A program made the translations under genes and the position numbers. Positions 1,396 to 13,360 of a stretch of DNA of 64,000 nt are shown here, piece after piece. The number at the start of each line of letters is the position of its first letter. The first letter of the stretch is position 1. Below the pieces are notes generated by a model, which was not told the DNA's origin, did no database searches, and saw only the letters and a program-made list of their open reading frames with translations. This DNA comes from Chrysophaeum taylorii (Eukaryota > Sar > Pelagophyceae > Pelagomonadales > Pelagomonadaceae): the NCBI GenBank assembly GCA_029834535.1, contig JAQMWT010000075.1:1-64000 (forward strand). Direction: 5' to 3'.

Positions 1396-2991
1396 ATGTT
1401 TGCAGAAGACATCATTTGTGATGTAGACGTTCATCTATCCTCGACCGAAAAGTCGTTAAACTACGTGGAGCCACAACACCATACTGTTGTTACTGCTCCC
1501 ACCCCAAAGGCAACTCCTCCTACTACAAACACACAGGGTAATCCTTCCAATACTGTGCCTAACCTCTTTACCGCTTCCGCCATCTCGGCTTTACCACCAG
1601 CATTATTGTCCTCGCTATCTTCACAGGTCCAATCTGCCCTCAACCTACCATCACAAGCCGAAACCAAAAGGGATGCCGATCATACTTCGCTATCGTCATT
1701 TGATGAAAAGCACGGCATGGCTGATGAGGCTGACGAACCATCACCACCTGTTCAACCGATCATTATTCCAACGAATCTGTTATTGCTGAAGAACTTCTTC
1801 ACAGCCAGCCTCTCCACTACTTGCCCACATTCGGAAAACGCCTTCCTCACCAACTACATGAAGGTAAACAGTGTCCCTCCACATTGCTCTTTCCTATATT
1901 TTGACTCTTGTGCTACCATCTCATTGATGTCCACTTATGATTTCGCAATACCCAATCATATAATTCCATTGGACTCCACATACGCCCCGATTGTTATTCA
2001 GACGGCAACAGGACAACAACGTGCCTCACACATGATGTTAACACGCAACATTGTTGTTCCCCTACCAGATCATCCACAAGTTGGCTATGTTAAGATCGAC
2101 TTCGCTTTATGTCTTCAGCCAGTGCATGACCGACATCTCGCTATCCTGAGCATGCTCGAGTGGAACCAGACGAACCTGACCACTGTGTTCAATGATCGAG
2201 CTGAGCCAAAGCTCAGCGCTGTCACGAGCCGCATAGACAAAGATGTACGTATACCCATACACTATGTAGCAGCTAATTTACCTGCTCTCCCTTGTCTCAC
2301 TTACAACATCGCTCGCGACAAGCAACTCGAACTTCGTTCCCTCGCATTTCCCCTCAAGCGATACCATGAAAACAGGGATCTACTGGCATACTACAACTAC
2401 CTACTCCAAAGAGTTTTACCAGATCGCCCGTGGATTCGCCCTTTGGTTCTCAATCTTCGGAAACAGAACAAGTTTGTTCAGCAAAATACGCAGCCTGACT
2501 ACTCACGCCCAGTGTTTCTCTCACAAGAGTCCAATCTCCGCAAACCCTCTGTCATGTTACTTTGTTCTGGTTTGTCAACTCCGGCGTTCCTGTCTCAAGC
2601 CACTAATGACTTAGGCTTAAATATCAATGTAAAAGTTGTTGTTGAGTCTGATGATACGCTTGTTCGTATGTTACGCCACCGTTTTCCTACTGTATTATTA
2701 TTTGAATCTCTCCCCGCCTTTATTAACCATCTTCACCTAATCTCACCAGAGGAAAGGCGCACATTCTATTGTGATATAATTGAGATCACTCCTCCCTGCA
2801 CAAACAGGAATTTACTAAAACAGCATAAGACAGAAGACTTACACAGCCTGCTGGACGATTCTCTTTTCGACAGCATGCTGTCTGTCATCAAGCTACTCCA
2901 GCCCTTGGTACTACTGGCTGAGATGACGCCTCCGCATAAGTACTGTCATCAAGACCACATCACAGTGGCCAACTTATCATACTACCCTTGA
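1396..2991 (+). pseudogene. Copia polyprotein: protease plus N-terminal half of a C5 DNA methyltransferase-like domain
   Basis: The 531-codon frame begins with a linker rich in Pro, Ser and Thr that contains SLNY (codons about 20-23). A retroviral-type aspartic protease active site (FDSCAT, about residues 169-174, in place of the usual D-S/T-G-A) follows, with an ATGQQ flap-like stretch downstream. From about residue 384 the sequence switches to cytosine-5 DNA methyltransferase features: a motif I-like LLCSGLSTP in place of LFSGxGG, an acidic VVESD motif II, a motif IV with the catalytic-type Pro-Pro-Cys (codons at 2791-2799), and a motif VI position with Glu in AEMTPP (2919-2933). Motif VIII follows in another frame at 3044. 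Cytosine methyltransferases carried by retrotransposons are known from dinoflagellates and charophyte algae; here the assignment rests on motif order and spacing. Confidence 0.6.
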
Positions 2992-3151
2992 TTACTGTGT
3001 CGATGTTGTTGATAGGTTCCCGACCTACCTCTGTGGCGACTACCAATCTAGAGAAAGATGGATATGCATCGCACGCAGATATTCTACTGGACCAATTAAA
3101 CTATTGTCGTGGCCTCCTCCATCCACGCCCCTTCCTAAAGATCGTGGATGA
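2963..3151 (+). pseudogene. C-terminal part of the methyltransferase-like domain (motif VIII)
   Basis: After a +1 frame change near 2960-2985 the open frame contains the segment CGDYQSRERWICIARR, with QSRERW at 3044-3061. This is the Q-x-R-x-R motif VIII of cytosine-5 methyltransferases, preceded as usual by an aromatic-rich segment of about 30 residues after motif VI and followed by a beta-strand-like WICIARR. The frame closes at TGA 3149-3151. I do not see a clear motif IX or the C-terminal G-N-x-V motif X downstream, so the domain is either truncated or degraded. Confidence 0.55.
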
Positions 3152-4560
3152 TCTACAACTATTCCCAAGCGCCTTTGGCTACCTAAACACGTATCCAAAG
3201 ACTGGATCCGGGTGTTCCCGATCCTCCATATATCCCCGTTCCTAAAACGTTTGCACCTTACTCTCGCACAGGTTCTGCTCAGCTTACTATGGCTGACCTT
3301 GAATCCCTCAATATGTTACTGCTTCGCCTTCACTCACAACAGGCTCACGAGCAACGTACTCACTCTGTTCAATCCGAGTGTACTTATCATCAGTTGTGCT
3401 TTAAACGCTCCTCTATGGAGCCGCTACCCAATGCAACCTACCCTATACACGTCAAGGTTTTTACAATCCTCTATAACTTGTTTGCCAGCTTACACACTAA
3501 CTCACCCACTCCTGTGTCCTATTACATAACCGTTTTCGAAACTAACCAACCGTCACACAGGTTACTTACACACCTCATCAACATCACACAACTCCTACTT
3601 CTTAACTGGTGGCCACCATTCCGACGGCAACCTCACCATAGAGAACGCCACCACCAAATCACTTCCATCACGCTTTTGGAAGCACGTATACGTTCACTGC
3701 TTCCGACATCCCCGCGACCGGGACAGGTCCATATATTTGGAGCCGTTTATGGGTTACTTGTGGATAGTCCAAGCCCTCCCCCAAGTTGGCTCCGCTGCCA
3801 CCTATGGCACCGCCATACAAAAGCTCTTGTCCAGATGCTCTCTTGTGATGCCTGGCTGCCTTACCTACAAGGCCACCGACAACTCTTTCGACTACAAGGA
3901 TTCTCATTTTGCTCTGGAAGATCACCACTTATCTCATAGTCGCTATATAGGGTACCTTCGTGGAAGTGACCGCAAACTCGGCTCTAAAATCCACTCCATG
4001 CTTGCTCCATTGCCACCGTCCGAGGGTACGCCAATATTGTTTTACTCGACCCTCGCAACGGGAAATTACGCTACCCCACTCGACCGGAGTTGATTCGTGC
4101 TAACAACCACACCAAACAACAGGAATCTTCCCTCTTGTCTCTACGCCATGACCTTTGCTGTGACATGCTCAGCAATGCTCTGCCTGCCGGTACGTACAGC
4201 ACTCTGTACAAGCACCTTTCGCTCCTCGTGCCGATATTAAATCCCTTATGTTGGACCCTACCTTCCAACATACTGCTGCCGTGACGAAGAAATCCTATGT
4301 ATCCAATTTCATGACCGTTGATCAAGCTTCCACCACGTGCAGCACAGATACCTTGTCTTTGGCACATCTTTTATGATGTCTATTTCCAGCAACTGCTTGA
4401 CCGAAATGTCGTTAAACTATATATCTTCGTCCTACGAAGATACTCTCGCTACTCGTGATGATGAGGATGCACCTCCAAGTGACCCTGCTGCGCACCAGGA
4501 TGACGACGCACCGCCTCCCCTGCCTTAGACACCGAACTCAAGTTCGATGTTCGGCGCAAA
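3152..4560 (+). pseudogene. Degraded copia coding linker between methyltransferase and integrase
   Basis: Protein-like segments continue in alternating frames: about 3213-3939, 3737-4093, 4090-4360 and 4337-4528. At least four frameshifts separate them. The last piece contains the second copy of the 21-nt repeat (4399-4419, read as LTEMSLNY) followed by an acidic, proline-rich stretch. No domain is recognisable; part of it could be the missing target-recognition and C-terminal part of the methyltransferase module. Confidence 0.4.
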
Positions 4561-6422
4561 CGGCATATTCCCGCTCATCCCATTCCTCGTAAGTCCTCGC
4601 ACACGGATCCACCGAATATCTCAATGCCAAAGAACGTGCCAATCGCTTTCACCGGGTGCATCACTGCCCCGACAACGTCGCTGCCAAGGCCCCCAACGTA
4701 CTTGCTCGCCCTGGATTCTCTGCTTCTGACATACCATATCGCGACTTATGCACCGACTGCATCGCACACAACAAGCGCCACCCGCACAAGCATTTCAATG
4801 CGACCAAGCCTTCTTTTGAGCAAACTCACAAAGCCGGCGAAGTCTGGGCGTGCGACGGCGGCTATGTGACCATCCCATCCGAATGGGGAGGCTTCACACA
4901 TATCATCGTCTTCAAGGAGCTCATTTCGAAATTTCTCTTGGTGTACTTTACACGCACCACCAACGCCACGGAGTTCACTCAAGCTCTGGATTTTGTGTAT
5001 GACTTCTGTCGTACACAACTCAACGTGCACATGCGCACCCTCTACTCCGATGCCTTCAAGCCCTACTTTAGCCAGCACATTACTTCCCCGTACCGCGTCG
5101 ATAAGGGCATTCAACTCATCGCCTTCCCGCCGTACATGCACCACTTTAACTTTGAAGTTGAGTCTGCCATCGGTTTCATCGCCTCCGCCTCCTCAACTCG
5201 CCTTCGTTCTCTCCTTAATGCTCACTATCGTGGCGCCAAGATCGTGGAACCAGCTATCATGTTCCCATGGGCGGTGATACACACCGTTCAAAGCTACAAC
5301 CTTCTCCCGAACGCCACGCTCGAGCGCATTCATCATGCTATCCTGAGTCCGCAACAGCTACTCTACAACCAACTCAACACTCCCCAACATGATATGCTCA
5401 AGATTTTTGGCGCTGAATGTTACCTTCTATTGGAGCCCCATGAACACCACAAGTGGGAACCGTGCCGCCGCAAATATTTATATCTCTGTTGCGCCAACGC
5501 GCAAAACCCGCTCGTCTCCCCACGCGTCGACCATCTCGCTGACGTCGTCCTCAACCCTGAAAACGGACAAATTCGTATTTCGTCCAAGCTGCAATTCCTC
5601 TACATGCTGCAGCATCCTACTCCTGATCCTGAACTTGCTCCTCCGCCTCACGCTCCTCCCGCGCCTTTCTCGCTCACACCCCACACCGCTATCCAAGACC
5701 ATGTCATTCAGAGGGGGACAAGGACTCCTCATCCTCAGAGAGGGCACTCCCCACCTCCTTCAGCTCCTTCTTCGTCCCCTACTCCTGCCTCTTCTCCCTC
5801 TTCTAACACTCTCGCCGACAATTCTGGCTCTATGTCACCGCCGCCCTTGCTTCCTTCTTACAAAGACCTTTTTGCACAAGATGACCTCATTCTTGTCCCA
5901 GGTTCCAAACAGCCCAACACCCGCAAGGCCACTTCTATGAAAACTATCCGAGCCCGGTTACAAGCGTCTACTATTGGTGCTTACAAAGCCGCTGGTGGCA
6001 AACTCGCCGATTTCCGCTGGGATCTTCGCCACCACTTTCTTACGTTCAAGTCTCCCGCCCTCTCCGCCCTTCATCTCAGTGGTGGTATCCTCTGGTCTGC
6101 TATCTGCTCAGAGGGGGAACATGCGTTGTTAGCTCGTCTTCTTCTCCCGTTGCGCACTGACTTACTTGCCCGCTACCCGCACGTCGATGGTTACTTCGCC
6201 CACGCCAAGTGCGCATCCAGCATCCCAGCTGCAACCTTTTTAACTGCTGATGGTTCACCTGCGTGCCCATTCCTCAGCCCCTTTTATCTGCGTTCACTGA
6301 ACACGCTGCTGCCTTCGGCACTTCTTCCTTACAATATGCACTTACGTACCTGGCGCCGACCAGCTTTATTGATCACAACTCCTCCGAGTTTGGCGCTACT
6401 TCTGCATCTCTGGCTGACCTGA
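4560..6422 (+). pseudogene. Copia integrase region
   Basis: The frame encodes a pre-integrase HHCC-type zinc finger (FHRVHHCP ... CTDC, about 4644-4760) and a DDE integrase core. The three acidic residues are visible in WACDGG, LYSDAFK and the FEVESA segment, with about 34-36 residues between the second Asp and the Glu candidates, matching D,D-35-E spacing. A long Pro/Ser-rich linker follows (about 5640-5900), as in copia integrases. The frame closes with TGA at 6420-6422; protein-like sequence in a second frame (6263-6440) indicates a nearby frameshift pair. The catalytic residues seem present but the open frame is interrupted, so no intact polyprotein can be made. Confidence 0.8.
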
Positions 6423-7865
6423 CTTGGAGGAATACCTTCTGGTCTCTACAGAGTTTATCACCAGGTCTTACACACCGACCCTACTATCCATATTCAACTG
6501 GAATCTGCCCCTACTACTCCTACTGACGCTGTTTCCGCTTATCCCGAAGTTGCGCACACTGCCTCGACCGCAACGTCGCTAAACTATAATTCACCAGCCA
6601 TTGTTGGTCCTGACGAATATAAGGTCCAAGAAGCGGACGTTTCCATTGACGAATATAAACTTAAGTGCCTCCACGGTTTGTCGCCTGAAAACAGGCACGC
6701 CTACCTCAAGGCCATCGCCAAGGAACTCCACGACATTATCCGCTTTGGCTGCTTCAAACTTTCCTTACCCGACGGTGTCTCTCGTCCTATTGACAGCAAG
6801 ATGGTGCTGAAGATTAAAACAGACTCTGCAGGCAAATACGTTAAGCACAAGGCTCGCCTCGTACTACGTGGCTTCCTAGCATCTCTTGGCGCCGATTTCT
6901 TTGGCACCTTCAGCCCCATGGCCACCATGACCGCAATCCGGGTACTACTAGCTATTGCAGCATACAAGCAATTGCCTGTCTACCATGCAGACGTCCCGAA
7001 CGCCTTCGTTCAGTCTGACATTGATGCCAACGTCTATGTTCAGTTACCAGACGGCATCAAGCTTATCGACCCCGATGACGCTAAGTACAAGGGCCGACGT
7101 CTACCGAAACTGCTGAAGTCACTTTATGGACTTCGGCAATCACCATCTCTTTGGAACAAAGAGATAGACGGCTTCTTCCGTAGCCTTGGCTACAAACGCC
7201 TGCATTCGGACTCTTGCCTATATGCTCGAGTATCCGCACATGCTAAGTTCGTCGTATGCAGTCTGTCTGTAGACGACATTGTTATTGTGTCCAATGACGA
7301 CCCTCTTCGTACTGAGTTACAGGATGCCCTCCACAAACGGTATGCTGTAGAGCAGTTTGAACCTGTCCATACCCTCCTAGGCATGCGTGTGTGTCGCACA
7401 TCTGACGGTTCCATTTCTCTGGATGTGCAAGCCAAGCTGGATGAACTCTTCGCTGATCACCCAGTCTTGCAGCAACTGACCCCGCTTAAATATCCTATGT
7501 CATCGTCCTTCAAGTATAAAGATGGCACTCCCAGCTCTGAAACAGAGTTGTACATCAATTCGCACTTTGCCACCCTCCTTGGCAAGCTGGTGTTCATGCA
7601 AGTTGCCTGCAGACCTGACTTCTCGCAAGCCTTGGGCAGATGTTCGCGTGGTATGCATGCACCCACGTATGTTCACGTCCAAATGCTAGAGCATTTGCTT
7701 CGCTACCTCAAGAAGCCGGAAAACCGCTCACTTCGCCTCTGGTTCCATCCTAAAGGTAATGCCATTGAAGCTCACCTTCGCACTGTCTCCGCTAATCGAA
7801 TTGATCTATCCACTGTGGTCGACTACCAACCGCAGGATGTATCTACTGGACAGTTTGACCCTTAG
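6423..7865 (+). pseudogene. Copia reverse transcriptase (RVT_2 type)
   Basis: Downstream of the TGA at 6420 the same frame stays open to 7865. It carries the third 21-nt repeat (6566-6586, STATSLNY) and then a copia-type RT: KARLVLRGF, FSPMATMTAIRVLLAIAA, the YHADVPNAF motif with its Asp, LKSLYGLRQSP, and the catalytic double Asp in LSVDDIVIVS. The usual aromatic residue before V-D-D is Ser here. The frame ends just before the RNase H start (TAG 7863-7865) and RNase H continues in another frame, so one more frameshift lies between them. Confidence 0.85.
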
Positions 7866-7870
7866 TTGCC

Positions 7871-8455
7871 ATGGTTGACGCTGACAACGCCCCTTCCTTA
7901 GCACAGGAAGATAGGAAATCTACCACCGGGTTTGTCTTCTATCTTTTCAACTGCCTTATTGGTTGGAAAAGCAAACTTCAACCGATTGTCTCCTGCTCAA
8001 CTCACGAAGCTGAGTTGATTGCCCTCAGTATTTGTGCTGATGAAGCTGTTTGGCTACGCAAGCTGCTGTTGGAACTCTCCTTTGTCGTCAACCCCACCTT
8101 CTACGTCAACAATGCTAATGGTGAGAACACCGCTGACCCTGTTGACTTCGATGACAATGACAACCCAATTGCTGAAGATATGCGCTTCATCAGAAGCCTA
8201 CCTCTCTTGTCTGACAATGCTGCCGCTGTTCACACCTCTAATAACCCAGATGGGTCCTCTCGATCCAAGGCACTGTCGACCAGATGGTTTAAAATCCGTG
8301 AGTACATCTCGCTACAGAAAATACGAGTCCATCATGTTCCCGGCAAGCTGAACGTGGCGGATGGTTTTACAAAGCCACTTGCTGCTGAGTTCTCCACCTT
8401 TCGTTCTCTACTCGGTATGCATCATGCCTCTGACGACAAGCCTTTACAGGATTGA
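7871..8455 (+). pseudogene. Copia RNase H domain
   Basis: The frame reads VDADNAPSLAQEDRKSTTGF, the Asp-containing start of copia RNase H (consensus D-A-D-W-A, then D-R-K-S-T-S-G). The Glu of STHEAELIAL and the Asp of LLSDNAAAV follow, then the C-terminal RSKALSTRWFKIREYI and HHVPGKLNVADGFTKPL, which is the canonical copia end. An acidic insert of about 20 residues (ENTADPVDFDDNDN) lies between the Glu and second Asp motifs. The frame is offset from the RT frame. Confidence 0.85.
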
Positions 8456-9004
8456 AGATGCCTAACCCTAGTGACCGCAACGTCGTTAAACTAGCCCTGG
8501 CCCTACCTTCTTTTGCCACATTTTTTTGTACGCGCGTGTGAGTGTCGCTCATGTCTCTTTCTTGGCACTCCCGTGGCCGTGGCCGTGGCATCTCTCCAGT
8601 CGTTCGAAGGACAATTCCACGCTCGCTTTCCACGGCCGAGCATTCTCCCAAGTTGTCTCAAAAGCGACAACCCATAACCACTGTCACTCCTGCTACCTCC
8701 CAGGCTGCTACTGTCTCACCGACACCAGTTGAACATATTTTACAACAATCCCTAACACTCCAGGATGGCCTCAACATGGATTTTGCCCTGATTGAACGAG
8801 GAATCTCTCTCTCTGAGAACTTCCGTACCCCTGCCACTCCCTTTCTCTCTTCTTTTATGCGAGCGGAAATCTCTACGGCACTCAACTCGATCTATCAGTC
8901 TGCTGACTTTTCACTGTTTGTGGAACTAACAACATTCATATCCATGCGCCTACCCATTACTACATTTTGGGAAGCTGCTCCTGCTGTTGCTTCTATTGGC
9001 TGCT
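8456..9004 (+). pseudogene. Extra 3' ORF of the copia element, part 1
   Basis: Past RNase H, where copia elements normally go into the 3' LTR, coding-like sequence continues. The fourth 21-nt repeat lies at 8473-8493, where the codon for its Tyr is TAG. A frame from about 8542 encodes a GRGRG-containing basic start and then a soluble protein with no recognised domain, up to about 9004, where the inserted LINE fragment begins. Envelope-like ORFs occur at this position in some LTR elements, but no signal peptide or transmembrane segment is visible here. Confidence 0.45.
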
Positions 9005-9275
9005 ACAGAGGCCCCAAACGTGAACGTTCGCAGATGACGTACGGGAGGTCGCTCGCCAAGGCACTCCGGAAATGCGACATCCCCTTCAACTCGTGGCACG
9101 ACCTCGCACAAGACCGCGCGCAGTGGCGGTCCGCCATCAACGGCTTTTCATCCCTCGCCTCTACCCCAGCTGTGTGATTTTTTGCTCTGTGATCCTGGAC
9201 CGGCGACTGCCGGCCCAGCCTGGCTCCCATGTCCGGGAGAGGTCCGAAGTTAGTTAGTTAGTTAGTTAGTTAGTT
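9005..9275 (+). mobile_element. LINE 3' end with (AGTT)n tail, inserted in the copia element
   Basis: The last 170 bases of coding sequence end in SWHDLAQDRAQWRSAI, the W-x-x-L-A-x-D-R-x-x-W-R signature found at the C-terminus of many non-LTR retrotransposon ORF2 proteins; the stop is TGA at 9175. A short 3' UTR follows with two hairpins (CCGGCGACTGCCGG and CTCCC...GGGAG) and a tail of about seven AGTT units (9247-9275). The same hairpin and tail occur inverted at about 55119-55165 and 57038-57130. The copy is heavily 5'-truncated. Confidence 0.75.
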
Positions 9276-10769
9276 ATTCTGTCATCCTACTGTAGGCAAT
9301 GCCTCAACGATTTGGGACAACCTACATTTCTTGCCTCCACCACATATAATTCGAAGTCACAAGCACCTCGTGAACTCCCCACTGAAGTGCTGAGTCACAG
9401 ATGACCATAAGAAGAATGGTCACATCCCCATCTCAACTATCACCATAAACATTTGTTGCGCTTGTCACAACACCGATCAGGTGCCCATACAACCTATCGT
9501 ATGTGCACGTAATGCTACTTCCTTCCAACCCTCCTGTGATGGGTGCTCAGCTGGTCATATACGCGCAACCATCATACGCACCTATAATTTGCCAAAGGAG
9601 CTACATACTCTCTTGACTAGCAGTCTAACGCAAAATCCGTCACTTGCTCATTTAGTCTTATCAGTAACCGATGCAGCCACAGACTCCACCACTCAACTGC
9701 CATTCGCACTGGATCTTCGGCTTATTACTCAGATGCACCTGGAGCATCTTAACTTTCTTGTAACTCTCGTGCGAACACAGGCTCGTAAAACTCAGGCTAT
9801 GTTCAAACCCACCAAATACCACCATGTGATTAATACTGTTGTCCAATCGTGGGCACAACATCTTGACGACTACGTATCATCCTCAGATGATACAAAGCCG
9901 CCATCACTCCTGGATGTAATGTTCGCCCCCACCTATACTCCGGCAGAACATCAAGACTTTCTGCACTTTCTAAACGCGAAATACCCCCGACTTGCACAGC
10001 ATGTGTTGACCGAAACGTCATTAAACTACTCACTCTCCACATCAGAACCTACTCTGGAAATGTCTTCACCATCGACACACGCTGCTCCTTCTGCCTCGCC
10101 TGATGATGTCGATGCCTTACATCTAAAAATCGAGCTACTCCAGGAAACTCTTCGCCCACATATTCGCAAGGTCAACACCCTCAGTGCTGAGAATCTATCT
10201 CTGCGCACAGATCTGCAGGCTGCCATTGCTTCAATTACCTCCCTGGAGAACCGGCTCTTCCTCCTACAGGCAATGCACACGTGTTGCTCGTAAAACTGTT
10301 CAAGATCACAGAGCTGCTGACTCGCTTAACTCTTACAGCTCATGACCAATATGCCGCCAACCATTCCTCCCCGGACGATCACCTCCATCATCTGCGTGAT
10401 AATTTGCTCTCGTGTATTCAAAACATTCCTTTCGCGTGTGAATCGGAAGACTCTTCTATCTTCTCGGATCCGTTCGCTGAGTCCAACTTCTTGGAAAACC
10501 TACTGGACACCCTAAAACTTGACTCACTAGTGCCATCCATACTGAATGCTTTACTTGCACTCACGTTTCGTATGGTACCTCACCATTCTGCTATTGGTGT
10601 TCACAACCTGACAGCAGAAGCTGACGAAGAAGATACCGATACTCTCGAACCAGTAACGATGTCCACCACATCAGATAGCCTCAACACACTGTCTGTTGTG
10701 CCTGTGTTTCGTAATGCTCTGTTTAAAAGCGTCAAGTCGACTCTCAACTCCACCAAGTCGAAGTCCTAA
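9276..10769 (+). pseudogene. Extra 3' ORF of the copia element, part 2
   Basis: Coding-like sequence resumes after the LINE tail. About 9450-9560 encodes a Cys-rich segment (CCACHN ... VCARN ... CDGCSAGH) that could bind zinc. The frame 9481-10293 continues with a helical domain, the fifth 21-nt repeat at 10008-10028 (LTETSLNY), and a predicted coiled coil (about 10105-10265, heptads of Leu and charged residues). After a frame change, 10281-10769 encodes a further acidic segment. No homologue is recognised. If the polyprotein model is right, this region supplies one or two further mature proteins. Confidence 0.45.
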
Positions 10770-11096
10770 GCCCTAAGACACCCTGCTATGCTCTTGATGC
10801 TTCTTATGTGGCCTCTGCGACCATCAAGACTGCATGCTCCTTTCCTTCTTTTTTTTTTCTGTCTTCATCATCATCTTTCTCAAGAGATACTCTTCAGTCG
10901 CACCTTGCGCTTAAGACATCTCGAGGGGGTGCAGAGAAATCTGCTGCCTCTTACCCTTATCCGTCCGTTGAGAACGTGATCTCTTCCTTACCCTTCTTCC
11001 GCCTTTCTACACAATCAAATAGTCCTCACATTTGTGCTTACGCTCATCATCATGGTCTAGCGCGTCCCGAGGTATTTAGCACTATACAAGTGCAGA
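10770..11096. other. Non-coding, pyrimidine-rich stretch
   Basis: No gene is seen. The stretch is rich in TTCTT and TTTTTT runs and could include the 3' LTR or 3' UTR of the copia element, but I could not pair it with any repeat at the left edge of the window. Confidence 0.4.
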
Positions 11097-12481: not shown

Positions 12482-13360
12482 ACAGAAAAACATCTGTCGA
12501 TTAGTAGTAAGGAAACTTTACCTTTCTCGTGTAGTTCTAGATGCCGCCTGTCGTGTTCTGAGGATATAGGGAACATACCTCTTCATTCCCCGAATTAAAT
12601 ACTTCCAGACGTTCATGATGAGACGGGATGGTTTCCCAGGTGACTTACCATTTCTTGCTAATGCTTTGCAACGATGAGATTTCATCTACTGTGCCAAGAC
12701 GCCCCAGAACAACGACGGCGGCCGCGTCTACCATATGCACATGTGCAAGGCTTATGTTCGACAGTGAACGCACGCACGACTTCGAGAGCCTCGAAAACCC
12801 TAACCATGATGATAGTGCGCGAGCAATCATCCGCCACGAAGATAGTGCTCGGCCGTTTGGAACTCCCTCCATGAGGACTTTCAGGGTGTAAAGACTCACG
12901 GCTATTGGTTTTGGATCAATAAGATGTCCATCTCTCGGCAGTTCTTCTTCGATACAAAGGAATCGAGTCTGGCACTCTACTCCGAGCTAACCGCGCAAAT
13001 CTCGTGGACACCGGCAACATGCGCCGGCAGTGTCTTTGGGACACCAGACGACCCTCGATCCAGCCTCTCGAAAACAGGAGCCCCGTGTCGCCAAATAGGA
13101 ATTCCGAATTAAAACATCAAACATGGCGCTCGCTCCTTTTGCTTTTACTCTCCTTTTCACTTCGACTGGGATTCTCTCAGTCCGTTCGGCAATTATCCCT
13201 TGGGCTGACCCCCCCCCCCCGAGAAAACACGCGCCTCTTCGCAGCGCGCTACATACTATTACTGCGCGGGGTCTTGAAGTGCGATATGGTGGGCACAACA
13301 AGTTGTGTGGACCTCGACACTCTCCGTTAGATATACCATGGCGATAGCGAAGAAGGGGAC
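12482..13360. other. Gene-free stretch
   Basis: Only short overlapping open frames occur on both strands. One plus-strand frame from 13123 begins with a hydrophobic, signal-peptide-like start but runs into a poly-C tract (13209-13218) and has no recognisable homologue. No RNA gene seen. Confidence 0.5.

Follow-up and report, generated by a model that had tools for sequence, protein, structure and literature searches.

Nucleotides 2542-3148 of the DNA analyzed here probably encode the core of a very divergent cytosine-5 (C5) methyltransferase that has been captured by a Copia-type LTR retrotransposon and kept under selection as the first pol module downstream of a UGA retained after gag-protease; methylation of the element's cDNA would be its task. 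The window, to which coordinates refer unless a locus is named, is a stretch of 64,000 nucleotides from Chrysophaeum taylorii (contig JAQMWT010000075.1, positions 1 to 64,000). The element family represented in it is called A; two other methyltransferase-bearing families of the same genome are called B and C.

The element in the window

A copy of a Copia-type element fills the first 9 kb of the window. Its 5' end is absent (the window begins within gag) and its reading frame is disrupted in several places. Membership of family A in the Ty1/Copia group is indicated by an RVT_2-type reverse transcriptase (RT) with integrase matches, these below the Pfam cut-off, upstream of it. The features of this copy, all on the + strand, are:

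1315-2988, +: end of ORF1 (end of gag, protease) running on into the predicted methyltransferase core; a TGA separates the two parts in most other copies
1897-1932, +: protease-like active site, YFDSCATISLMS
2497-2520, +: protease/methyltransferase junction; an in-frame TGA in other copies, absent here
2542-2988, +: predicted C5-methyltransferase core, first segment, motifs I-VI (profile-profile comparison, conservation, selection)
2557-2583, +: motif I (SAM binding), LLCSGLSTP (profile-profile alignment)
2635-2655, +: motif II, VVVESDD (profile-profile alignment)
2773-2799, +: motif IV, DIIEITPPC; Pro-Pro-Cys at 2791-2799, catalytic Cys codon at 2797-2799
2911-2934, +: motif VI, LLAEMTPP; AEMTPP at 2917-2934, Glu codon at the E-N-V position at 2920-2922
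2978-3148, +: predicted core, second segment, in a different frame in this copy; stop codon at 3149-3151
3035-3079, +: motif VIII, GDYQSRERWICIARR; QSRERW at 3044-3061, in the second frame
4827-5075, +: integrase core, rve (Pfam E 0.0032, below cut-off)
5379-5498, +: integrase SH3-like domain (Pfam E 9.8e-5, below cut-off)
6765-7430, +: Copia reverse transcriptase, RVT_2 (Pfam E 1.6e-42)
7859-8452, +: last part of pol, called RNase H-like from its position (no Pfam match)

A Pfam scan finds no family in the protease-bearing ORF (1315-2991; 558 aa); YFDSCATISLMS is assigned as a protease-like active site by its motif. The sequence-only reading that this analysis followed up had noticed LLCSGLSTP, VVESD (within VVVESDD), Pro-Pro-Cys and AEMTPP, and these motifs (I, II, IV and VI) do lie together in the frame of that ORF, with QSRERW in another.

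Five upstream and five downstream pieces were compared in search of LTRs, and none of one set matched any of the other; the window itself begins within gag. At another locus (L012), two stretches of the window, 10930-11088 and 12515-12670, recur next to each other upstream of the element, and the second of them precedes ORF1 in L013 and L018 as well; they may be pieces of an LTR, split by tandem repeats in the window. Two open frames lie 3' of pol, at 8542-9177 (211 aa) and 9394-10293 (299 aa). Neither has a convincing Pfam match, and both are probably part of the element, because a 21-base motif immediately precedes the first and recurs within the second, and because copies align to about 9028. 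This motif, GACCGNAANGTCGNTAAACTA, occurs at 1443-1463, 4399-4419, 6566-6586, 8473-8493 and 10008-10028 (four exact occurrences and one with 1 mismatch, against 0.06 expected by chance), and it sits at module boundaries of the element: before the protease, before the integrase, before the RT and after pol. Each time it is read in the frame T-x-x-S-L-N-(Y/stop). Genome-wide there are 638 + 651 exact copies and 0 of the reversed pattern; pairs 87 bases apart occur near some family C copies, and the motif is absent from the family B loci examined and from one family C copy (L038). It may be a protease cleavage site or a nucleic-acid signal.

A probable C5 methyltransferase beyond the reach of Pfam

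Sequence searches of Pfam, NCBIfam and the PDB do not recognize the family A domain, whether presented as the frames of the window, as other copies or as a family profile: the cut-off of Pfam DNA_methylase (PF00145) is not reached, and the search with the window frames that the sequence-only reading had recommended gives no match. A search of 5.8 billion proteins yields no relative of family A (4972 candidates, none at or below the limit of 0.01), of family B (808 candidates, same limit) or of family C (470 candidates, none at or below 0.1). Scans of IMG/VR produce no relatives of the element methyltransferases and none of a Dnmt2-like gene of the host. Pfam being too insensitive for family A, the case rests on profile-profile comparison and on the two sister families.

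The reference profile for that comparison was built from 14 phage and plasmid enzymes (annotated DNA methyltransferases or methylases, found by similarity, about half of them named cytosine-specific) together with the Dnmt2-like and Dnmt5-like genes of the host, identified with PF00145. Against it, a 10-copy family A profile scores 42.3 over 210 columns (E 2.1e-5, probability 77%; here and below, profile-profile E-values are those of a single comparison rather than of a database search), with motifs I, II, IV, VI and VIII co-linear and superposed. Column-shuffled family A profiles never reach this score (0 of 450; maximum 23.9), and five other segments of the A and B polyproteins, compared with the same reference as controls, give E-values of 0.26-0.58. 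The 149-aa piece from the window gives E 3.3e-4 (probability 38%) by itself. Enlarging the reference by 10 bacterial and archaeal sequences weakens the family A match to E 9.3e-5 (probability 59%); enlarging it by families B and C instead gives E 8.5e-7 (probability 92%). The earlier proposal of a C5-methyltransferase-derived domain between protease and integrase of a Copia polyprotein is thereby upheld. It had been staked on profile matches in other members of the family: with Pfam there are, literally, none, but profile-profile comparison does provide one.

How much of an enzyme is left? Fourteen residues are invariant in eight reference enzymes. By eye, on the profile-profile alignment, family A keeps seven of these (a motif I Gly, the motif IV Pro-Cys, a Pro preceding motif VI, the Glu of motif VI and two motif VIII Arg) and changes five, including the second Gly of motif I, the Gln that follows Pro-Cys and the Asn-Val of E-N-V; the remaining two, in motif X, were not located. 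The catalytic Cys and the Q-x-R-x-R of motif VIII are each present in all 20 distinct family A places that were read, and the motif VI Glu in all 19 that have letters there, which bears out the contention that the catalytic Cys and Glu positions are kept. Motifs IX-X are not detected in families A and B by a profile test; candidates spotted there by eye failed that test and were rejected. In family C these motifs fall in the expected register, with a best score of 22.9 against a maximum of 26.2 among 60 shuffles. Structure prediction, also recommended earlier, was carried out with AlphaFold on the window piece as a single sequence, and the resulting model (pLDDT 37) is uninformative; MAFFT does not align this piece in register with bacterial enzymes. 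From its sequence, the family A domain is most plausibly a genuine C5 methyltransferase that is under selection and probably active.

Family A in the genome and its retained TGA

In the 70.8-Mb assembly (697 contigs), the 558-aa ORF has at least 81 matches (78 scored among 1282 candidates), 78 of the 81 at 90% identity or more. With its 392-aa methyltransferase part as query there are at least 107 matches at no fewer than 105 places, 81-100% identical (105 scored of 1252 candidates; the broken copy of the window is not among them), and 73 of the 107, counted by hand, are free of stops. Sixteen distinct long copies (L001-L018 minus two duplicates) include 14 with motifs I-VIII in a single frame, the exceptions being the window copy and L017. 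QSRERW is, consequently, no accident of an out-of-frame read: it corresponds to motif VIII, as had been supposed, split off in the window by a frameshift. Twelve of the 14 (12 of the 16 long copies) lack stops over these motifs.

The domain order of family A is protease, retained TGA, methyltransferase and then the integrase of the Copia element. In a typical copy, ORF1 (gag, protease) closes with TGA, and ORF2, which shares the frame of ORF1, opens immediately downstream with the methyltransferase. Among junction-spanning matches of the 558-aa ORF, 74 of 77 (counted by hand) hold at least one TGA; the TGA is at the protease/methyltransferase junction in 12 of 14 distinct places, again with the exception of the window copy and L017, and in 10 of these 12 the next codon is CTA. 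UGA-CUA is a leaky stop context. The 100 bases from the TGA onward show nothing unusual in RNA folding (z -0.8 to +1.0, 4 copies), and the argument for readthrough is accordingly one from context and conservation.

Two sister families and the host's own enzymes

Searching the genome with PF00145 gives at least 124 matches (123 scored of 474 candidates); most of those outside host genes were assigned to two groups by profile range rather than one by one. The Pfam DNA_methylase match of family B is above the cut-off in all three proteins scanned, from three places (2.9e-8 to 4.1e-7). Family B has a protease-like site, the methyltransferase and a weak integrase match, to which the one place traced further adds RVT_2 (9.7e-40), giving a Copia order. 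At least 88 family B matches lie at 79 or more places (79 scored of 722); loci L034, L035, L037 and L152 belong here. All 31 rows read have PCQ and 29 of them have ENV, with five places counted twice. A PDB search up to E 1 gives nine matches for family B, every one to a C5 methyltransferase (the best at E 0.005), and profile-profile comparison with the C5-methyltransferase reference gives E 4.2e-10.

Family C, of which two copies (L038 and L153) were read in sequence, falls just short with Pfam DNA_methylase (1.3e-4, 21.9 bits against a cut-off of 22, one copy scanned), and its profile-profile match to the C5-methyltransferase reference has E 2.5e-8. Its layout is gag, a protease-like region, methyltransferase, RVT_1 (1.2e-13) and RNase H (7.8e-28); RT of this type followed by RNase H makes the family Gypsy-like. 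There are at least 125 matches (125 scored of 1036), roughly in two groups near 97% and 81% identity, and frames are open for up to 3067 codons.

Together the three families account for at least 320 matches at 309 or more places, and in all of them the methyltransferase occupies the same position, between the protease and the next pol module. The scores of family A against B and C do not exceed those against the best phage enzymes, nor are the three mutually any closer than they are to these; separate captures are therefore likely, judging by these comparisons, with several captures or one old one both fitting the scores. What had been suggested as an alternative to a lone capture, a wider occurrence, is thus borne out within a single genome.

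The host has methyltransferase genes of its own. One (L036, 2968-6999) combines PF00145 (3.4e-17) with SNF2 (8e-9) and is, in the author's reading, Dnmt5-like; the other (L019, 1498-2577; 360 aa, PF00145 4.1e-19) is read in the same way as Dnmt2-like. The host is called an alga on the strength of 84 chlorophyll a/b-binding protein matches in its genome.

Selection, and the search for a methylation footprint

The methyltransferase core of family A has a pooled pN/pS of 0.17 (19 copies, window copy left out), compared with 0.25 for the RT (4 copies), 0.36 for the integrase (6 copies) and 0.31 for the part downstream of the core (14 copies). On these numbers, the copies differing in number between regions, the core is constrained at least as much as RT and integrase. 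All 169 usable pairs have dN/dS below 1 in the core, which is under purifying selection, and the columns of its catalytic parts rank with those that vary least. The core of family B has a pN/pS of 0.22 (26 copies).

Differences between copies show no clear methylation footprint in families A and B, C-to-T differences not being clearly highest at CG: on the given strand they are 0.074 at CG, 0.069 at CT, 0.059 at CC and 0.049 at CA in family A, and 0.166 at CT and 0.133 at CG in family B. The CG observed/expected ratio comes to 0.89 for the window element and 1.34 for a host stretch, but one family B locus has 1.03 and one family C locus 1.21.

A proposed function and its alternatives

The following sequence of events is proposed. 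A small fraction of ribosomes would read through the UGA after gag-protease, making the methyltransferase a minor, pol-linked product, synthesized with integrase and RT and presumably packaged with them in the particle. There, with S-adenosylmethionine as cofactor and the motif IV Cys as catalytic residue, it would methylate cytosines, the likeliest substrate being freshly synthesized cDNA of the element that has yet to integrate or is integrating; the mark might make the element copy look host-like or set its chromatin state. Methylation by the enzyme of its own element's cDNA is plausible by analogy with known systems.

Might the domain descend from C5 methyltransferases and yet no longer be an enzyme, serving the pol precursor as a SAM- or nucleic acid-binding or structural module? 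The loss of the second motif I Gly, of the Gln of PCQ and of the Asn-Val of E-N-V would fit, as would the undetectable motifs IX-X. The Cys, the Glu and both motif VIII Arg are, however, invariant in the distinct copies with letters there (20, 19 and 20 places), and the catalytic parts belong to the best conserved columns; this interpretation is considered unlikely. An active enzyme directed at RNA (the tRNA primer or the genomic RNA) instead of DNA is somewhat less probable still. LTR elements are primed by tRNA and package RNA; the best PDB sequence matches of family C, weak as they are, are to DNMT2 chains, one of them named tRNA methyltransferase (E 0.03); for the two family C copies the host's Dnmt2-like gene comes 9th and 5th among 19, leaving the respective other C copy out of the count; and methylation of RNA is raised for Symbiodinium LINE elements in the discussion of PMC5890265. 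Set against this, phage and plasmid enzymes outscore the Dnmt2-like gene in 12 of 14 cases with family A and 13 of 14 with family B, in single-sequence scores.

That an unrelated accessory domain should merely happen to display PPC, AEM and QSRER is very improbable. Family A does lack any sequence-profile match in Pfam, NCBIfam and the PDB, but the score that no shuffle attains, the controls, the co-linearity across the whole 210 columns and the recognizable methyltransferases at the same position in two other element families of the same genome all speak against coincidence. The preferred reading remains a captured and selected C5 methyltransferase. A bolder version is advanced tentatively, as possible rather than probable: that two Copia families and a Gypsy-like one in a single alga acquired C5 methyltransferases separately, all at one spot between protease and next pol module, so that the methyltransferase would be a standard pol subunit and hundreds of copies could write 5mC, the dose being set in one family by UGA readthrough.

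Cytosine methylation is usually something that retrotransposons undergo; finding a methyltransferase at the same place in three families suggests that these elements may mark DNA themselves. If one algal genome does contain over 300 places, a lower bound for the three families together, at which a C5 methyltransferase forms part of a retroelement's pol polyprotein, then element-written methylation is more than an oddity confined to dinoflagellates and charophytes. In that case the recurrence of a single position would point to a definite role in reverse transcription or integration, one that can be probed in a genome of 70.8 Mb. Since element methyltransferases can be too divergent for Pfam, surveys that count PF00145 matches will miss such domains.

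Comparison with known systems

No report of stramenopile elements of this kind is found in the accessible text of PMC9998398 and PMC6338049, and none of other DNMT-bearing LTR elements was recognized among the best matches of a literature search whose coverage mostly excludes subscription papers. The closest precedents come from the portions of PMC5890265 that are accessible. The SymbioDIRS-Dnmt3 and SymbioLINE-Dnmt elements of Symbiodinium are described there as retrotransposons with C5 methyltransferases, high copy number, key residues kept and purifying selection; two SymbioDIRS copies are active on CG sites when tested in yeast, and cDNA is suggested as a target. The families described here resemble them in joining a C5 methyltransferase to a retrotransposon, in their many copies, in key residues that are kept and, for families A and B, in purifying selection, and differ, as far as those portions go, in being LTR elements (Copia and Gypsy-like) with the domain between protease and next pol module, rather than DIRS or LINE elements with a Dnmt3 or an orphan lineage. 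KnitGypsy-Dnmt3 of Klebsormidium nitens, in the same source, is an LTR element with a methyltransferase in its Pol polyprotein under purifying selection, and in all these respects a counterpart; it is a single, Dnmt3-related family for which those portions describe no recoding stop, unlike family A with its retained TGA. Family C shares with it the Gypsy-like type of element. Accessible parts of PMC12344493 place some DNMT3 members in LTR Copia and DIRS retrotransposons, tied to streptophytes and dinoflagellates: a Copia host is common ground between these and families A and B, of which A is too divergent for Pfam.

DIRS elements with a Dam-like adenine methyltransferase, named in PMC5890265, are a parallel in that methyltransferase modules reside in retroelements in both cases; the Dam-like enzymes are of the adenine class and structurally unrelated, and it is the motif IV Cys and the QxRxR of motif VIII that place the domains described here in the C5 class. 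In order and spacing of motifs I-VIII these domains are like the C5 methyltransferases of bacteria and phages (for example that of phage KP15, whose annotation likens it to ScrFIA and NlaX), which stand alone and have recognizable motifs IX-X, whereas the family A domain is fused into a retroviral-type polyprotein. DNMT-bearing retrotransposons are already known, and the elements of this alga are a further variant of them.
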